A stretch of DNA of 59,684 nucleotides from Nitrospirota bacterium (GTDB lineage: Bacteria > Nitrospirota > Thermodesulfovibrionia > Thermodesulfovibrionales > UBA6898). Location of the stretch: NCBI GenBank assembly GCA_016215155.1, contig JACRLQ010000085.1:1-59684 (forward strand). Reading direction: 5' to 3'. Under the pieces are notes generated by a model, which had not been told where the DNA came from, ran no database searches, and saw only the letters and a program-made list of their open reading frames with translations. A program made the translations under genes and the position numbers. Of this stretch, positions 2,741 to 22,482 are shown in pieces (within the stretch, counting starts at the first letter, position 1; every line of letters starts with the position of its first letter).

Positions 2741-3913
2741 ATGCTGAAGGACAGGTATCTTACTCCCTTCATTGTGGAGGACCTCAAGGACAAGATGGTG
2801 TTCATCGGCGGGCCGCGCCAAGTCGGGAAAACCACTCTCTGCAGAAAGTTCGTAGCCACGCATTTTAACGACCACGCATATTTCAACTGGGACAACAGGG
2901 CGGACAGAAAAACGATCACTGCATCGTCCTGGCCGGCGGATGCTGAACTCCTGATCTTCGATGAGATTCACAAGTACAGGCAGTGGAAGGGCCTTATCAA
3001 GGGTGAATATGACAAGTTGAAGGATGTTTTCAAGTTTCTTGTTACCGGAAGTGCCAGGCTCGACCTTTACCGTAAAGGCGGAGACTCTTTGCAGGGCAGG
3101 TATCATTATTTCCGGCTTCATCCGTTTACTTTAGCGGAAGTTGAGGGGCTTAGTTATAAGTCTACGGTCCATGGCGAATTGCACATAGGAAAGAATTTAT
3201 ATCAGGGCTCCATTGAAGCTCTGGCAAAGTTCGGGGGATTCCCTGAACCCTTTATGAAGCAGAACGAAAGACATTTGAGACGCTGGCATAATGAAAAGAT
3301 AGAGCGGATGTTCCGTGAGGACATCCTTGATGTCCAGGCCATACGGGACGTAGCGAATATGAAACTCCTCAGCGACCTCCTTCCGCTGCGGGTTGGCTCT
3401 TTGCTCTCAATAAACGCCATAAGGGAAGATATTGGAGTGAGTTTTCGGGCCGCATCGCACTGGATCGATGTGCTGGAGGCCTTCTATTATCATTTCAGGA
3501 TCTATCCCTTTACATCCGGAAAGATACGGTCTCTAAAAAAAGAACCTAAGCTCTATCTCTGGGACTGGTCTGAGGTCGAGGACGAGGCCGCCCGATTCGA
3601 AAACCTTATAGCGTCTCATCTGTTGAAGTTTGTTCATTTCATCACTGACTATGAGGGACATAAGGCGGACCTATATTTTCTAAGGGACGTTGATAAGCGT
3701 GAAGTCGATTTCCTTGTGACCATAAGCGGGAAGCCATGGTTTGCGGTTGAAGCCAAACTTAAAGACACCGCTTTGTCTCCTCAGCTTCTTTACTTCAAGG
3801 AAAGGTTGTCTATCCCGTACGTATATCAGGTAGTAAATGTCGGAGACGCCGACAGGCTTAAGCAAGGGGCAAGAATCATCCCAGTGGGGAAATTCCTGTC
3901 CGCCCTGATATAA
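2741..3913 (+). CDS. AAA-type ATPase of the AAA_14/DUF4143 family
   Basis: A 390-aa predicted NTPase. The N-terminal AAA_14 domain shows Walker A GGPRQVGKTT (residues 23-32), Walker B LLIFDE (70-75) and a sensor-like VTGSAR. The C-terminal half is DUF4143-like and carries REVDFLV...VEAK, a pattern that resembles the PD-(D/E)XK nuclease fold seen in this family. The cellular role of the family is not known; it is common in mobile and accessory regions of bacteria and archaea. There is no ribosome site before the ATG and a TATAAT box ends six nt upstream, so translation may be leaderless. It has no operon partner. The family call is strong; the function is open. Confidence 0.9.
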   Translation: MLKDRYLTPFIVEDLKDKMVFIGGPRQVGKTTLCRKFVATHFNDHAYFNWDNRADRKTITASSWPADAELLIFDEIHKYRQWKGLIKGEYDKLKDVFKFLVTGSARLDLYRKGGDSLQGRYHYFRLHPFTLAEVEGLSYKSTVHGELHIGKNLYQGSIEALAKFGGFPEPFMKQNERHLRRWHNEKIERMFREDILDVQAIRDVANMKLLSDLLPLRVGSLLSINAIREDIGVSFRAASHWIDVLEAFYYHFRIYPFTSGKIRSLKKEPKLYLWDWSEVEDEAARFENLIASHLLKFVHFITDYEGHKADLYFLRDVDKREVDFLVTISGKPWFAVEAKLKDTALSPQLLYFKERLSIPYVYQVVNVGDADRLKQGARIIPVGKFLSALI

Positions 3914-3954
3914 ATCTATCAAAGCCCCTGCAATCGACCCTCCGCTCGACCCGT

Positions 3955-4083
3955 TCATTTCCTGCCGAAATGCTCTCTCCAAATAGCATCGGCCTTCCTG
4001 ATATGGCCGGGAATGTCACTGCTCCATTTCTCTTCTAATTCGTCTTCATAATTCTTTATACCTCTTTCCGATAGCCGTTCCAT
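3955..4083 (-). CDS. Possible 42-aa small protein
   Basis: A minus-strand ATG-to-TGA frame of 42 codons, read as MERLSERGIKNYEDELEEKW onward and ending in a HFGRK-like tail. Composition (charged, helical, one Trp-rich segment) looks protein-like rather than random. There is no clear ribosome site upstream and I recognise no family. It may be the remnant of a longer gene. It occupies most of the gap between the ATPase and the YkgJ-like gene. Confidence 0.3.
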   Translation of the reverse strand: MERLSERGIKNYEDELEEKWSSDIPGHIRKADAIWREHFGRK

Positions 4084-4446: not shown

Positions 4447-4530
4447 GGTTCTTGAGTTTTCTGACCTCAGTACGGGCCTTACAGAGCCTTTCGGTAAAAT
4501 CGCCCGCCTTGCTAACTAAAGTAGCCTGTC

Positions 4531-4569
4531 CCCTTTTTGTTCCCCCTTTTTGTTCCCCCTTTTTGTTCC
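4531..4569. repeat. Three perfect 13-bp tandem repeats
   Basis: The unit CCCTTTTTGTTCC occurs three times head to tail (4531-4543, 4544-4556, 4557-4569). Since 13 is not a multiple of three, each unit shifts the reading frame. The repeat sits exactly at the broken end of the protease fragment. Its left flank, GTAGCCTGTCC, resembles short repeated sequences that I recall beside IS200/RAYT-type transposases, but that is a recollection and not a database match. Confidence 0.85.
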
Positions 4570-4795
4570 CCCAATCCCGTTATCTAGGGCAGCTATGTAT
4601 GCAGAACCCTTAACATAGTCCCAAGCAGCTTGTAAATTCATCATCTGCAACCCCCACTGATGACTTAGGGGGGCCGGAGGACTCGATGTTCCAAGGAATA
4701 AGTGATCCATCGGTGTCACCGACAACAATAAAAAGTGGTTATTTTCTACCCATTGTATCATAGGGTTTTTTGCAAGAGCTTCCTTACTGTCCGGT
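4570..4795 (-). pseudogene. Fragment of an S8 (subtilisin-like) serine protease
   Basis: On the minus strand the frame reads a propeptide-like segment (EALAKNP, WVENN), then the start of a subtilase catalytic domain (HQWGLQ, AWDYVKGS, DNGIG). DNGIG matches the position of the catalytic Asp motif of S8 peptidases. Homology stops right after this motif, where the 13-bp tandem repeat begins, so the His and Ser parts of the triad are missing. An in-frame stop precedes the propeptide. It is a remnant of roughly 75 codons; no function is expected. Confidence 0.7.
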
Positions 4796-5054
4796 TAAAA
4801 TAGAGCGCCTTGAATGGGCTCCTCTGGTCGTATTTTGAGTTTGTCGGGGTTCAGTGACAGTATATCTATAAGCGCCTTTCGTTCGAAGGGAGTTTCCCTG
4901 AGGACCCGGCTGAGTTGCCGCTTCAGGGACTGAAGAAACAAAGGCCCCGAAATCAGGAGGCATATTAACAAGGTCCAGAGGCGCGGTAGAAAAGTTCAAC
5001 GAACGTTCAACCGAAGGAGGCCGGCAATGAGCTTTTTTAAATGATGACTATTGG

Positions 5055-5097
5055 CAAAAAAGGAAGGGCTACAGGATGTTGTATCACTGTAACCCTT
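5055..5097 (-). terminator. Terminator-like hairpin of the damaged tRNA-Val copy
   Basis: On the minus strand AAGGGTTACAG (5097-5087) pairs with CTGTAGCCCTT (5074-5064), followed by CCTTTTTTG. It is the duplicate of the hairpin behind the intact tRNA-Val at 7494-7532. Confidence 0.6.
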
Positions 5098-5177
5098 TGT
5101 TTTTAATGGTAGGCCCGGGCGGTTTCGCGAACCGCCGACCTCTACCGTGTCAAGGTAGCGCTCTCCCCCCTGAGCTA
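5082..5177. repeat. Left copy of the tRNA-Val direct repeat
   Basis: This block, from TATCACTG through the D arm of the tRNA copy, repeats with small differences at 7516-7607. It covers the tRNA body plus about 25 nt beyond its 3' end, and lacks the 5' acceptor strand. The two copies bracket the NHL-repeat gene. Confidence 0.8.
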
Positions 5178-5184
5178 GATAACT
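5107..5184 (-). pseudogene. tRNA-Val (GAC) pseudogene
   Basis: The sequence matches the intact tRNA-Val at 7540-7614 through the D arm, anticodon arm (loop TTGACAC) and encoded CCA, but it is 78 nt because of one extra base in the D-loop G-run and two extra bases in the T loop. The T-stem pairs have changed to GGCGG/CCGCC, still pairing. The first seven bases (AGTTATC) no longer pair with CGGGCCT, so the acceptor stem cannot form. It has the same orientation as the intact copy, 2.4 kb away. Confidence 0.85.
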
Positions 5185-5214
5185 TTAATTCTATGCGCCT
5201 TAATCAATATTGTG

Positions 5215-5243
5215 TTGCATGTGATTTGTTTGTCATATATAAT
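5215..5243 (+). promoter_or_regulatory. Promoter of the NHL-repeat gene
   Basis: TTGCAT (5215-5220), a 17-nt spacer and a perfect TATAAT (5238-5243). Transcription from it would give a leader of about 300 nt before the NHL gene at 5551. The leader contains short ATG frames of 16 codons (5289) and 7 codons (near 5494) with purine-rich sequence upstream. Confidence 0.5.
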
Positions 5244-5550
5244 GTTAGCTAATTTAGTTGCATGTGTGCTTTGAGGAGATATAAGGGATGGCGTTTATGA
5301 TAATCCCTAAAAAGGGTTTTTTTAGCGCAGAAACCTAAACACATGGGGAGTATGACATGGGGCGGAATATCGATTGCCGGGATTGTCCAATTACAGTTTT
5401 GAATATTACTGATAGCATTTAGATAATAATGATATAAACAGGAGGTGGTCTAAACAAAAAGCAACTAATTAGAAAAAAAGGAGATTAGAGGTTAATGAGA
5501 GATGTAGGACCGTCGTAACTATCTAATATATATGAGAGGAGACTATTGGT

Positions 5551-7425
5551 ATGGAAAGAATGAATAGTTCAGTAAAACCGGGGGGGTTCCGTTTGTTGAG
5601 ATTATTTCTTCTGTTGTTGCTTGCAGTAAGTGTATATGCCGGAACTGCTTTCGGAGCAAGTTACACATATGTGAGTACGCTGGGTGTGAAAGGTTTGGCA
5701 GTAGCAGTGGACGGCTCTGGCAATTTGTATGTTGCAGAAATGGACAACCATATCATCGAGAAGTATAATTCAAGCGGCATATATGTAAACACGCTGGGTG
5801 TGACAGGTGAAACTGGCACGGACAACAGCCATTTTGATAATCCAACAGCGGTAGCAGTGGACGGCTCGGGCAATGTCTATGTTGCCGATACCAACAACCT
5901 GCGAATCCAGAAGTATGATTCAAGCGGTTCGTATGTAAGTACTCTTGATGGTGCAGGGGAAGGTTCCTTTAATTTTCCACAAGGGGTGGCAGTCGATGGC
6001 TCGGGCAATGTGTATGTGTCTGATACCAATAACCATCGCATACTGAAGTACAATTCAAGCGGCACATATGTGAGCACGCTCGGTGTGACAGGTGTACCTG
6101 GCACGGACAACAGCCATTTTGATCAGCCACAACAGATGGCTGTAGATGGCTCAGGCAATCTTTACGTGGCTGATATGCGGAACCATAGGATTCAGAAATT
6201 CAAATCGGATGGAACGTATTTGGACACGTTGGGCGTATCAAATGAATTAGGTACAGATAATAACCATTTATATTATCCGTATGGGGTAGCAGTGGACGGC
6301 TCCGGCAATGTGTATGTTGCTGATACTGTTAACCATCGGATCCAGAAATTTGATCCAACTGGCGGGTATGTGGCTACGCTTGGGGTGACGCTTGACCCCG
6401 GCTCAGACAATAGCCATTTTAGTTCTCCAACCGGGACGGCAGTGGACGGCTCAAATAATCTTTATGTGGCTGATCAGGGTAATAACAGGATCCAGAAGTA
6501 TAGCCAGTCTGTCTCGGTTGTTCCAGCAAAGCTGACGTTGATATCTCCGTCCGGCACAATAGTGACGAATGTTCCTCAATACAGGTGGAACTCGGTTTCA
6601 GCAAGTTCCTATTCGATCTCCGTCTGGGTTGACGGCAAGGCCGTGTTCAGTCGGTCATACACAGCAGCTGAAGTAAATTGTTCAGGTGGGGGAGCATGTT
6701 ACATAACTCCTTCGTTTAATATTAAGTCGGGAAGTTCGGCACGCTGGTGGGTACGTGGCGTTAATGATGGTGGTGCTGGTTCATGGAGCGAACCACTCGA
6801 ATTCGCTGTGTCGGCGCCGGTACTTCCTGGAAAGCCAACGCTTATATCACCTATAGACACAATAAATACAAAGTCGCCTCAATACAAGTGGAATTCAGTT
6901 GCAACAGCGACTTCCTATGTTATATCGATCTGGGTTGACGGCAAGAGCATGTTCGGGGGAACATTTACGGCAAACCAGGCAGGCTGTGCAAGTGGTGGAG
7001 AGTGTTCTGTGACTCCTCCGTTAGCTGTAAACTTTGGGGCTTCGGCACGCTGGTGGGTGCGTGCTATTAACGGTGTTGGTGCTGGTTCATGGAGTACACC
7101 GCTGAATTTTACCGTGGTTGATCCAATACCGGCAGCGCCTACTCTGATATCGCCGTCTGGAACTACTGCTTCTCATACACCCGAGTACAGGTGGAACTCT
7201 GTTAATATAGCGACATCGTATTGGATATCGATCTGGATTGACGGCAAGAGCATGTTTAGTCGTTCGTATACTGCAGCTGAAGTAAATTGTTCAGGTGGAG
7301 GAGAATGTTACATAACTCCTTCGTTGAATATTAATTCTGGATCATCGGTACGCTTCTGGGTACGGGGTATTAATGGTGCCGGAGCGGGTTCATGGAGCAT
7401 ACCAAACTCGTTTACTGTAGATTAG
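5551..7425 (+). CDS. Secreted NHL-repeat beta-propeller protein with three Fn3-like repeats
   Basis: A 624-aa exported protein. Residues 1-35 form a long signal peptide (hydrophobic run LFLLLLLAVSV, cleavage probably after AFGA). Six NHL units follow, each with AVDGSGN-(L/V)-YVAD, enough for a six-bladed propeller. The C-terminal 300 residues are three repeats of about 100 aa (YRWNSV, WVDGK, a conserved Cys pair, WWVRG, GAGSWS) that look fibronectin-III-like and may be disulfide-bonded. Such proteins usually bind ligands or glycans outside the cell; no enzymatic motif is visible. GAGGAG lies upstream of the ATG. No PEP-CTERM or other sorting tail is present. It stands alone between the two tRNA-Val copies, which suggests acquisition as cargo. 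Confidence 0.85.
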   Translation: MERMNSSVKPGGFRLLRLFLLLLLAVSVYAGTAFGASYTYVSTLGVKGLAVAVDGSGNLYVAEMDNHIIEKYNSSGIYVNTLGVTGETGTDNSHFDNPTAVAVDGSGNVYVADTNNLRIQKYDSSGSYVSTLDGAGEGSFNFPQGVAVDGSGNVYVSDTNNHRILKYNSSGTYVSTLGVTGVPGTDNSHFDQPQQMAVDGSGNLYVADMRNHRIQKFKSDGTYLDTLGVSNELGTDNNHLYYPYGVAVDGSGNVYVADTVNHRIQKFDPTGGYVATLGVTLDPGSDNSHFSSPTGTAVDGSNNLYVADQGNNRIQKYSQSVSVVPAKLTLISPSGTIVTNVPQYRWNSVSASSYSISVWVDGKAVFSRSYTAAEVNCSGGGACYITPSFNIKSGSSARWWVRGVNDGGAGSWSEPLEFAVSAPVLPGKPTLISPIDTINTKSPQYKWNSVATATSYVISIWVDGKSMFGGTFTANQAGCASGGECSVTPPLAVNFGASARWWVRAINGVGAGSWSTPLNFTVVDPIPAAPTLISPSGTTASHTPEYRWNSVNIATSYWISIWIDGKSMFSRSYTAAEVNCSGGGECYITPSLNINSGSSVRFWVRGINGAGAGSWSIPNSFTVD

Positions 7426-7450
7426 CATTTCACAAAGAAAGCCTAATTGG

Positions 7451-7482
7451 AAAGCCGGCGGAACCTCCGCCGGCTTTCGTAA
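7451..7482 (+). terminator. Terminator after the NHL-repeat gene
   Basis: An 11-bp perfect stem AAAGCCGGCGG (7451-7461) / CCGCCGGCTTT (7467-7477) with a 5-nt loop starts 26 nt after the stop codon. The T-run is partly inside the stem. Confidence 0.7.
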
Positions 7483-7493
7483 TTTCACGATAT

Positions 7494-7532
7494 AAAAAAG
7501 GGTCAAAGGATGACATATCACTGTAACCCTTT
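7494..7532 (-). terminator. Terminator of tRNA-Val
   Basis: On the minus strand AAAGGGT (7532-7526) pairs with ACCCTTT followed by further T residues, a few nt after the CCA end of the tRNA. Confidence 0.55.
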
Positions 7533-7607
7533 GTTGTTATGGTAGGCCCGCCCGGTTTCGAACCGGGGACCTCTACCGTGTCAAGGTAGCGCTCTCCCCC
7601 TGAGCTA
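7516..7607. repeat. Right copy of the tRNA-Val direct repeat
   Basis: Partner of the block at 5082-5177, in the same orientation, and overlapping the intact tRNA-Val gene and its 3' flank. Confidence 0.8.
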
Positions 7608-7614
7608 CGAGCCT
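7540..7614 (-). tRNA. tRNA-Val (GAC)
   Basis: A complete 75-nt cloverleaf on the minus strand: acceptor AGGCTCG/CGGGCCT (one G-U), anticodon stem CTACC/GGTAG with loop TTGACAC (anticodon GAC), T arm CCCGG-TTCGAAA-CCGGG, discriminator A and encoded CCA. Confidence 0.96.
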
Positions 7615-7678: not shown

Positions 7679-8935
7679 TTAAAAAAGCCTCACCTCGACA
7701 ACCCCGCCTTTTTCTATCCCGTTGCTGTGCATGGGGATGATGAACGTCCCGTCGGCCTTAACAAGAGTGCTGATAAGCCCTGATTTCGACATTCCCGGGA
7801 TGGCCCAGAGACCGTCCTCCCTTTCTTCGATTATCACTCGGATATGTTCCTCACGGCCCTGGGGAGAAGAAATGTTGCGCGACACTTTTGCCTTAACGAC
7901 CATATGTCTGTATTGAGGGAACCTCTCGGCAACTCCGCATAGTCTTCCCAGTAACGGCCTGATAAAGATCTGAAAACATATGCTGACCGCGGCCGGATGC
8001 CCGGGCAAACCAAAGACCGGGACCCCGTCGATAACGCCTCCTATCAGGGGTTTGCCGGGCTTAAGTGAGACCCCGTGAAAAAGGACCCCCGGATTTCCCA
8101 GGTCGCTTATTATCCCCGCGACCATGTCCTTCGTGCCGACGGAGGTGCCTCCTGATATGAGGACCATGGCGGAGTCTTTTATCGATCCGGCGATCGCGCC
8201 CCGAAGGTCGTCATAGCTGTCCCTGAAGATGCCCTTTCTTACGGCGTCACCTCCTGATTCCGTGATCATGCCCTTAAGCACATATGAATTAATGTCCCGC
8301 ACCTGGCCGAAGGCCGGAGTGGCCCCGGCCTCGACGATCTCGTCACCGGTAGAAATGATGGAGACCACGGGCCTTTTATATATGTCGATCCGGGTGACAC
8401 CCATACCGGCACAGGCCCCTATGTCCTGCGGCCTCATCCTATGACCCTTGTCCAGCACGGTCTCCCCCGCCTTGATATCCTCACCCCTCTGGACGACGTT
8501 TTCCCCCGGGCCGACAGGTTTCATTATCTCGACCATAGTGTCATCAACTGTCTGGACATGCTCGAACATCACGACGGAGTCCGCCCCCCCGGGGAGCATT
8601 CCGCCGGTGGGGATCTTTGAGGCAAAGCCCTTCTTAAGAACAAAGTCCGCCTCGCGGCCCATGAGTATCTCTTCCGAGAGGCCGAGATATGCGGGCATGG
8701 TCTCCGCGGCGCTGAAGGTGTCACCGGACCGTACCGCGTAGCCGTCGACGGTCGACCTCGGAAAATGGGGAAGATCATGGGCGGCCTTTATCTCGCGGGC
8801 GCAGATCCTGTGCAGCGCATCGTCGATACCGACGGTCTCGACACAGGGTTCTTTATCGGGAAGGCCGCCCGACATACGCCGGACCGCTTCCTCGACTGTT
8901 ATGCTTTCTTTACGCCCGAGCATGTCTTTTGTCAT
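7679..8935 (-). CDS. moeA: Molybdopterin molybdotransferase MoeA
   Basis: Inserts molybdate into adenylylated molybdopterin, the last common step of molybdenum-cofactor synthesis in the cytoplasm. The 418-aa protein has the usual family length. Landmarks in order: the N-terminal MoeA signature FPRSTVDGYAVR, the MoCF-binding segment STGDEI, GGTSVGTKDMV, the GVSLKPGKP loop and LPGHPAAV, then the C-terminal beta domain. It is a single gene on the minus strand, followed by tRNA-Val. The start has no strong ribosome site; the ATG four codons downstream is an alternative. Its presence implies molybdo- or tungsto-enzymes elsewhere in the genome. Confidence 0.95.
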   Translation of the reverse strand: MTKDMLGRKESITVEEAVRRMSGGLPDKEPCVETVGIDDALHRICAREIKAAHDLPHFPRSTVDGYAVRSGDTFSAAETMPAYLGLSEEILMGREADFVLKKGFASKIPTGGMLPGGADSVVMFEHVQTVDDTMVEIMKPVGPGENVVQRGEDIKAGETVLDKGHRMRPQDIGACAGMGVTRIDIYKRPVVSIISTGDEIVEAGATPAFGQVRDINSYVLKGMITESGGDAVRKGIFRDSYDDLRGAIAGSIKDSAMVLISGGTSVGTKDMVAGIISDLGNPGVLFHGVSLKPGKPLIGGVIDGVPVFGLPGHPAAVSICFQIFIRPLLGRLCGVAERFPQYRHMVVKAKVSRNISSPQGREEHIRVIIEEREDGLWAIPGMSKSGLISTLVKADGTFIIPMHSNGIEKGGVVEVRLF

Positions 8936-10946: not shown

Positions 10947-11714
10947 TTATTGTAAATGACATTTAACGCAGGTCCTGTTATTACCGGCGTTCTTTAGACG
11001 GCCTGAGATCTTCGACCAGTTCCTCGGGTGAGGGTTGACCTTTAGCCCGCTGATGGCGCTGTGGCACTTCAGGCAGACGTCGCCGTCGGCATGACAGCTC
11101 TGGCAGGACGCAAGGTTCTTCCTCGCCTCCCGCGCATGCGCCCCCGACCACTGATTTTTGGGCAGCATGCCGTTTGGATGGCAGGTCTGGCACATAAGCG
11201 GAGTAAAGAGCGCATGGGTGGGGCCGCCCAGCTTCAGGTCGAGGTCCGTCCATCCCCTTCTGTGGGATTCCAGCCTGAGGTCATTTCTGTTGAATTTGTC
11301 ATGACACTGGGCGCAGAACTTTTCGGAGTCATGGCAGCGGTAACATGACCGGGGTGACTCTTTTGCCTTAATCGGATGGAGTTCCCTGAAGTCCGACCTG
11401 TGGCTCTTGGGCATGTAGTCAACTCCGGAGTTTGACACGTGAAGGTCCTGGTCGATGCCGCCGCCCTTATGGCAGTCAAGACAGAACGACTGCTGATGGC
11501 AGTCCGCGCAGTTGTTCGGCAGTTTATGCTTGTAAAGCTTGTGTTCTTTCATCCAGAATTCGCCGTGATTGGGTTCGACGTTGTTGCCGATATGGCATTC
11601 GTTACAGTACTTGATCTCCATGGAGGTCCCGTAGTCGGTATGGGTCGTCACGGACCATGCGATGGGACTCAGCACTAATAATATTATTATGGTTAGTGTT
11701 AGTTTTCTTATCAC
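10947..11714 (-). CDS. Nine-heme periplasmic cytochrome c
   Basis: A 255-aa exported cytochrome with a signal peptide (about residues 1-21) and nine CxxCH motifs (CNECH, CADCH, CLDCH, CYRCH, CAQCH, CQTCH, CQSCH, CLKCH, CVKCH), roughly one heme per 28 residues. The start is GTG, five to six nt after a strong GGAGGG. Only 14 nt separate it from the porin upstream and 20 nt from the ten-heme lipoprotein downstream. In known porin-cytochrome conduits the small multiheme protein sits inside the barrel or on its periplasmic face and passes electrons to the outer lipoprotein; that role is inferred here. Confidence 0.88.
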   Translation of the reverse strand: MIRKLTLTIIILLVLSPIAWSVTTHTDYGTSMEIKYCNECHIGNNVEPNHGEFWMKEHKLYKHKLPNNCADCHQQSFCLDCHKGGGIDQDLHVSNSGVDYMPKSHRSDFRELHPIKAKESPRSCYRCHDSEKFCAQCHDKFNRNDLRLESHRRGWTDLDLKLGGPTHALFTPLMCQTCHPNGMLPKNQWSGAHAREARKNLASCQSCHADGDVCLKCHSAISGLKVNPHPRNWSKISGRLKNAGNNRTCVKCHLQ

Positions 11715-21622: not shown

Positions 21623-22482
21623 ATATTGATTTGGAGTTACCGGATTATCCCTGCAGAATTGTATTAGAGCTTACACCGCTCTGTAATCTGGCTTGCGCCA
21701 TGTGCCCGCGCCATTATGTGGAAAAAGCCCATGGATTTATGCCTAAAGAACTCTGGATAAAACTTATCGATGAGATTGCCGGGACGGCTCAGGATACCGT
21801 AATTCTGCCTTTCTGGAGGGGAGAATCACTACTCCACCCTGATTTTATAGACTTGATGGAGCTAGCACTAAAAAAATCACTGCGGATTCACATATCCACT
21901 AATGGTCACTTGGTTACAGGGAAATATGCAGATGTCCTCGCAAAATGCGAGTTCGTAACTTTTAGCATCCATACCGTTTTTGGCCTTACCAGAGCCAGAG
22001 AATTTCTGAGTCTCAAGATAAACGGGAAACCGACTGTGCAGATATCCTTCGTGAAGGGGGAAAAGAGTACGGAAGATCTCCTCCATACATTAATCAATCA
22101 TCCTGATCTTGATGGCTTTGACAGCATCCGGTTATATGAGGAGCACACAAAAGACGGTATATTTGGTAAGTCAGCATGTCAGTCAGACTCTCAGCGCATC
22201 TTCTGCCAGAAGTTGCTGGATACTCTGGTCATTTCCTTCGATGGCTCGATATCGCGCTGTAATCATATATGGGAAACAGAGAAGGGCATGAATGTTAACT
22301 CAGTGACCATCAAGGATGCATGGTCGTCATCACAACTCAGTACTATCCGCCGTGCATATCCTGACCAGTTGTGTACGCCTTGTGACCAATGGATTGGGCA
22401 TACCAGCGGTGAGTCGTGGCGCATGGTTGATGGAAAAGTGAAACATATCAGATACAGGCCGGAGGATACGCACCATGAATGA
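21619..22482 (+). CDS. Radical SAM protein with C-terminal Cys cluster
   Basis: A 287-aa protein with the radical SAM motif CNLACAMC (C-x3-C-x2-C, about residues 23-30) for the SAM-binding [4Fe-4S] cluster. C-terminal cysteines (FDGSISRCNHIW and LCTPCDQW) look like a shortened SPASM-type auxiliary cluster site. The substrate is unknown; related proteins in glycan clusters are often annotated only as radical SAM. It overlaps the glycosidase gene upstream (ATGA) and the aminotransferase downstream by 8 nt, so it belongs to that operon, perhaps modifying a sugar or a sugar-linked group. Confidence 0.85.
   Translation: MNIDLELPDYPCRIVLELTPLCNLACAMCPRHYVEKAHGFMPKELWIKLIDEIAGTAQDTVILPFWRGESLLHPDFIDLMELALKKSLRIHISTNGHLVTGKYADVLAKCEFVTFSIHTVFGLTRAREFLSLKINGKPTVQISFVKGEKSTEDLLHTLINHPDLDGFDSIRLYEEHTKDGIFGKSACQSDSQRIFCQKLLDTLVISFDGSISRCNHIWETEKGMNVNSVTIKDAWSSSQLSTIRRAYPDQLCTPCDQWIGHTSGESWRMVDGKVKHIRYRPEDTHHE

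Follow-up and report, generated by a model that had tools for sequence, protein, structure and literature searches.

The window, a 59,684-nucleotide stretch of Nitrospirota DNA that constitutes contig C8 of genome G000 (3.43 Mb in 101 contigs), contains an intact and a partial copy of tRNA-Val(GAC) in direct repeat, separated by an insert of ~2.4 kb with one substantial gene. The locus comprises the following features:

4516..4761, minus strand: short open frame outside the left copy, resembling a subtilase by eye and apparently broken (no Pfam match; neighbouring frames interrupted)
5064..5106, minus strand: left-copy terminator hairpin, strong (fold -17.8 kcal/mol, z -5.8)
5107..5177, minus strand: tRNA-Val 3' fragment from U8 to CCA, T-stem GGCGG/CCGCC, one extra nucleotide in the D loop and two in the T loop (sequence, Rfam, relatives)
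5178..5184, minus strand: junction, where the 5' acceptor strand has been lost (mismatches to the intact gene at 5 of 7 positions)
5185..5550, no strand: AT-rich (GC 0.347) left end of the insert, non-coding
5551..7425, plus strand: NHL-repeat propeller gene, 624 aa, with three C-terminal repeats of about 100 aa, probably secreted (Pfam NHL, 8.6e-49; DNA repeat families D1-D3; leader by eye)
7451..7477, plus strand: inverted repeat 3' of the NHL gene, probable terminator (by eye), occupying the space expected for element arm sites
7498..7539, minus strand: right-copy terminator hairpin (7498-7538 folded, -11.7 kcal/mol, z -2.1)
7540..7614, minus strand: intact tRNA-Val(GAC), T-stem CCCGG/CCGGG, adjoining moeA (ARAGORN; Rfam, 63.1 bits; comparison with relatives)
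7679..8935, minus strand: moeA, the conserved upstream neighbour of tRNA-Val in the family (Pfam MoeA_N, MoCF and MoeA_C; synteny)

The direct repeat of part of the tRNA and its 3' flank, which the preliminary description had proposed, is real. Positions 34-143 of a 151-nt right-copy query align to 5064-5177 on the minus strand with 86.8% identity (11 mismatches and 4 gap positions), and the score of 113 bits is well above the 28.3 bits of the best of 50 pair-shuffled windows. The block common to both copies runs from U8 through CCA to the end of the terminator hairpin; the 3' flank in the repeat therefore measures about 43 nt, with a whole hairpin in each copy, rather than the about 25 nt originally given. 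The right copy is intact, as had been stated, and is called by ARAGORN as tRNA-Val(gac). The left copy receives no ARAGORN call and is called by Rfam at 5110-5184 with 32.6 bits (gathering 29); the earlier observations that it lacks the 5' acceptor strand and has an enlarged T loop (9 nt) both hold. From U8 to CCA it is the family tRNA without substitution, altered only by one added G in the D loop and the two added nucleotides in the T loop, and thus it either recently stopped being a gene or was recently derived from one. Only these two tRNA-Val(GAC) copies rise above chance in the genome, the next of 13 matches (E 0.037) lying inside a tRNA-Ala. The flanks upstream of the two copies have a similarity score above the shuffled mean but with p about 0.07, and shared homology of these flanks was dropped as a claim. 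Elsewhere in the genome, ARAGORN reports an odd 91-nt tRNA-Cys(GCA) on contig C79 (locus L173:5364-5454), which scores 27.8 bits in Rfam, below the cut-off.

The single substantial gene between the copies encodes NHL repeats. NHL propellers with Ig-like repeats are usually extracellular binding proteins. The C-terminal repeats of the present protein are probably Ig-like, and it is presumably secreted and may have a binding role. The preliminary description had called it a secreted, adhesin-like propeller: the propeller is confirmed by Pfam, and secretion is probable from a leader recognised by eye. Partial homologues occur in 44 of the 61 genomes, its own included, at E <= 1e-20, and among the matches listed for the 60 relatives there is no full-length homologue outside the window. 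The GC3 of the gene is 0.437 compared with 0.68-0.73 in moeA, aconitase and the CxxCxxCC gene; because several other window genes are equally low, composition was rejected as proof of foreign origin and helps little in judging it. The left end of the insert (5185-5550) has no match in the 60 relatives, so no sibling element is known. The reported absence of an integrase stands, as Pfam found none in or beside the insert and tblastn of 12 recombinases against 4447-7539 gave a best E of 0.55. The protease fragment reported outside the left copy is not confirmed, its resemblance to a subtilase start being by eye only, and its equation with the subtilase beside tRNA-Val in G016 was rejected on a 16-residue match (E 0.38). 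Beside this broken open frame, a short tandem run of a TTTTTGTTCCCCC-like unit lies at 4531-4572. Further along the window, at 21619-45630, lies a possible polysaccharide or secondary-metabolite cluster, a block of low-GC3 genes (about 0.37-0.57) that includes some of the DegT/DnrJ aminotransferase, asparagine synthase and methyltransferase types.

The moeA-tRNA-Val(GAC) site is, judged from comparison of genome sequences, an integration hotspot in the 27-genome family, in which it is documented here. The 151-nt tRNA query matched 58 of 61 genomes (60 relatives and the window's own) at E <= 0.001, many of the matches being other tRNAs; all 27 family genomes were also searched with a tRNA 3'-half pattern, which matched in 23, and 37 stretches around copies were mapped, two of them from the window's own genome. 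An intact tRNA-Val(GAC) is present in 21 family genomes (20 by ARAGORN, plus a G001 copy with an NN gap). Upstream of it and in the same orientation, 20 of the 21 have moeA, usually no more than 4 kb away and in G006 at about 6 kb, and the gene content 3' of the tRNA differs almost everywhere in the family. Besides the window's own, 17 partial 3' copies of the tRNA occur in 12 family genomes (three in G001; two each in G017, G018 and G025; one each in G003, G006, G008, G015, G019, G020, G021 and G023). Fifteen of the 17 start at query positions 53-57, in the anticodon arm, one starts at 62 beside an NN, and that of G008 starts at 75, in the T arm. In contrast to all 17 in relatives, the window fragment starts at query position 34, which is U8, and retains the D arm. 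A scan of viral contigs for the tRNA 3' half gave 0 matches, and a scan of wider genome contigs for moeA returned 46 loci, distant only (up to 45% identity) and useless for synteny. The exception among the 21 is G011, where moeA adjoins a tRNA-Val 5' half that leads into a run of N and the intact tRNA lies far off on the same contig, an arrangement that is either a rearrangement or a scaffolding error through the tRNA. In G003, an inverted stretch resembling the tRNA 3' end and the start of the native terminator is located at 11000-11040 (locus L098), just before the distal fragment.

In G026 and G016, a single tRNA and its terminator are followed after 2.7 and 4.6 kb by genes that we take, from reading the proteins rather than by family search, to be thrS, rplT, pheS and pheT; one or two genes precede thrS, so these sites are not strictly empty. 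Within genus g5, the distal tRNA fragments of G018 and G025 abut the same thrS block that in G026 comes less than 3 kb after the single tRNA, and the small gene C34 is common to G018 and G026. The interval between tRNA and thrS is about 15 kb in G014, and in G008 tRNA-Val and thrS lie about 125 kb apart on one contig. Near the site in the window's genome and genus there is no thrS, the right-hand neighbour in G026, G016, G018, G025 and G014. Within this genus no site proved strictly empty, all four members with the locus differing. The fifth member, G004 (listed as 100% complete), has no tRNA-Val(GAC) match and no moeA ortholog, only a 40% paralog, and its locus may be lost or unassembled.

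Integrases occur at the same tRNA in relatives. Recombinase cluster C9 comprises 7 proteins at 6 loci, with PF00589 in both members scanned. Its integrases lie directly 3' of the intact tRNA and face it in G018 and G019 (PF00589 by Pfam) and in G006 (same cluster), and G017 has a 225-residue C9 frame after its distal fragment. Arm-type repeats were sought as exact 8-mers at 10-12 nt spacing within 260 nt, a test that misses degenerate sites; they were found, mostly at 11-nt spacing, in 10 of 41 3' flanks and 7 of 41 5' flanks compared with about 1% in shuffles, each set of 41 including both window copies. By the same test, neither window junction has arm-type repeats within 260 nt. Related element ends recur across species, the right ends of G015, G017, G019 and G023 being 77-99% identical over about 140 nt. 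The window's own genome provides a control, a canonical-looking tRNA-Met island of about 19.7 kb. Its tRNA-Met is at C56:2638-2714, and an identical 46-nt 3' copy lies 19.7 kb away at 22405-22450, the island end; within the island, a recombinase-like frame occupies 2968-3969, and a repeat with 11-nt spacing lies close to the intact end. Similar but different terminators follow both tRNA-Met copies, so for that element it is normal that the terminator is duplicated together with the tRNA part.

Counting that of the window, eight intervals of 1-7 kb are bounded at both ends by a copy on a single contig:

G000, 2.4 kb: NHL protein (Pfam)
G001, 2.2 kb, weaker, with NN in the tRNA: Pfam-unmatched protein, leader by eye
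G003, 4.6 kb: C5 DNA methylase, HATPase protein and Methyltransf_35
G008, 5.2 kb: C5 DNA methylase with HNH and Fic proteins
G017, 6.6 kb, between two fragments: fn3/PKD protein and PemK/MazF toxin gene
G018 and G025, 1.2 kb, between two fragments: DUF5658
G020, 3.3 kb: DUF5050 protein with HYDIN-type Ig

Both copies have the same orientation in all eight, and the fragment lies 3' of the tRNA in all five that have an intact or near-intact tRNA. None of the eight contains an intact integrase by Pfam or by tblastn with 12 recombinases, a few short G001 and G025 frames lying outside the Pfam scan. The G001 interval has a C-terminal recombinase remnant of about 35 codons at its tRNA copy (tblastn best E 5e-13). 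At tRNA-Val(GAC), fragment-bounded units of 1-7 kb lacking an intact integrase are thus the rule among those closed on one contig (8 of 8), a count biased to small units because short intervals close on one contig more easily. Islander-type surveys drop fragment-bounded units that lack an integrase, and such units are undercounted because of this integrase filter.

Between the two copies in the window, two base pairs of the T-stem are flipped. Seventeen of the 21 intact family copies have the GGCGG form (G007 among them, with further changes), which matches the left copy, and four (G000, G001, G003 and G016) have the CCCGG form, the type of the right copy. A left copy of the family type and a right copy with the other T-stem fit foreign DNA that restored the tRNA and displaced its native 3' part, and the left copy is presumably the native one. 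T-stem type is not a clean lineage marker, because the terminators of G013 and G016 are of one type (84.9% over 73 nt) while their T-stems differ, and because the native-looking fragments of genus-mate G001 are CCCGG. The genus-native type could accordingly be CCCGG; the left copy would then be foreign and the roles swapped. Both window terminators and that of G001:C48 are about equally far apart (scores of 25, 27 and 29), and these scores alone do not tell which copy came in.

Taken together, the 2.4-kb segment is probably an insertion into tRNA-Val(GAC) at the hotspot, integrase-less and CIME-like, with one NHL-Ig gene. That DNA had inserted into this tRNA gene was already the preliminary suggestion, and it is strengthened by the finding that the same tRNA is the family hotspot and that the two copies have different T-stems. 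The incoming DNA would have supplied a substitute for the greater part of the tRNA (T-stem CCCGG) and a terminator, so that the tRNA beside moeA would have kept its function, with its own promoter and 5' strand still in front. The native 3' part (GGCGG, strong terminator) would have been pushed 2.4 kb away and become a fragment without a 5' strand. The locus agrees with a canonical island in having the 3' fragment on the 3' side in the same orientation, and departs from it in that homology starts at U8 and not at the anticodon or T loop. The event type is well known; the U8 start of homology and the lack of arm-type repeats are its two unusual details. The U8 junction would follow from a D-arm crossover, from an element with almost all of the tRNA or from homology-assisted joining, and the crossover possibly lay further inside the tRNA than U8 if the element carried the D arm. 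A recombinase was presumably used. The insert is best described as a CIME-like passenger, either stripped or always integrase-less. The integrase remnant at the G001 tRNA copy favours stripping there; the window insert has no integrase remnant and no arm-type repeats, and its U8 junction has no parallel among the others.

The odd U8 junction, the missing arm-type repeats and integrase, and the different T-stems would all be accounted for if a relative's moeA/tRNA-Val(CCCGG)-terminator-NHL DNA had entered by recombination at moeA or the tRNA at one end, with an illegitimate join to the native tRNA at U8 at the other end and no site-specific recombinase. Such homology-assisted import makes a coincidence of a junction at an exact tRNA structural boundary, of the proven hotspot and of the insert-fragment geometry, and we regard it as unlikely. 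Tandem duplication of tRNA-Val, followed by a gene insertion or a deletion with loss of the left copy's 5' end, would explain two copies in line with the same kind of terminator, and the window terminators are indeed closer to each other and to G001:C48 than to most relatives. Yet the T-stems differ by two flipped base pairs though both forms exist in the family, and the upstream flanks are not significantly alike. The simple tandem duplication that the preliminary description had named as its refuting case is also absent in relatives, in which a second copy is a 3' fragment, with the cut at the anticodon arm in 15 of 17, and not a duplicate; this origin is improbable. Assembly breaks at the same tRNA in relatives, namely the NN in G001 tRNA copies and the N run in G011, would speak for an assembly artefact joining two loci, which is barely credible for a window region with no N and for copies that are 13% different, 2.4 kb apart and the only two in the genome.

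Beyond insertion of a CIME-like passenger, the site might host a guild of integrase-less cargo (secreted propeller/Ig, methylase-nuclease, toxin) moved in trans by integrase elements of the same site, with the window's cassette having used a D-arm crossover (GCTC-loop-GAGC, symmetrical) at a subsite outside the Islander survey list; we consider this extended scheme a long shot. Should the D-arm junction mark a recombinase subsite, the known tRNA crossover positions would gain one more. Three tRNA crossover subsites were reportedly distinguished by Williams in 2002.

The Islander paper gives the anticodon loop, the T loop and the T/acceptor junction as the only crossover subsites (PMC4383910). 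Like the tRNA-targeted tyrosine-integrase islands described there, the locus has an intact tRNA and, on the 3' side, a fragment of the same tRNA in the same orientation that reaches the 3' end, with a length of more than 2 kb; unlike them, it has no integrase inside, a start of homology at U8 rather than at a listed subsite, and no arm-type sites at its ends. A site in the D arm is not wholly unprecedented, because in archaea, according to the review PMC8371274, an attB site can reach across the D loop. CALIN arrays mobilised in trans, as outlined in PMC11389934, are likewise cargo between recombination-like sites without a recombinase, but the window's sites are tRNA pieces and not attC. Cis-mobilizable elements (CIMEs), of which classical examples measure 1.2-13 kb, derive from an ICE or IME and retain attL and attR, as summarised in PMC5704250 and PMC7563491. 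The insert has putative att-like tRNA repeats, one substantial gene and a left end without counterpart in the 60 relatives. By the tests that define them, the insert is not a member of the integrase islands; as a short cargo segment between attachment-like repeats, without integration or transfer genes, it resembles a CIME.
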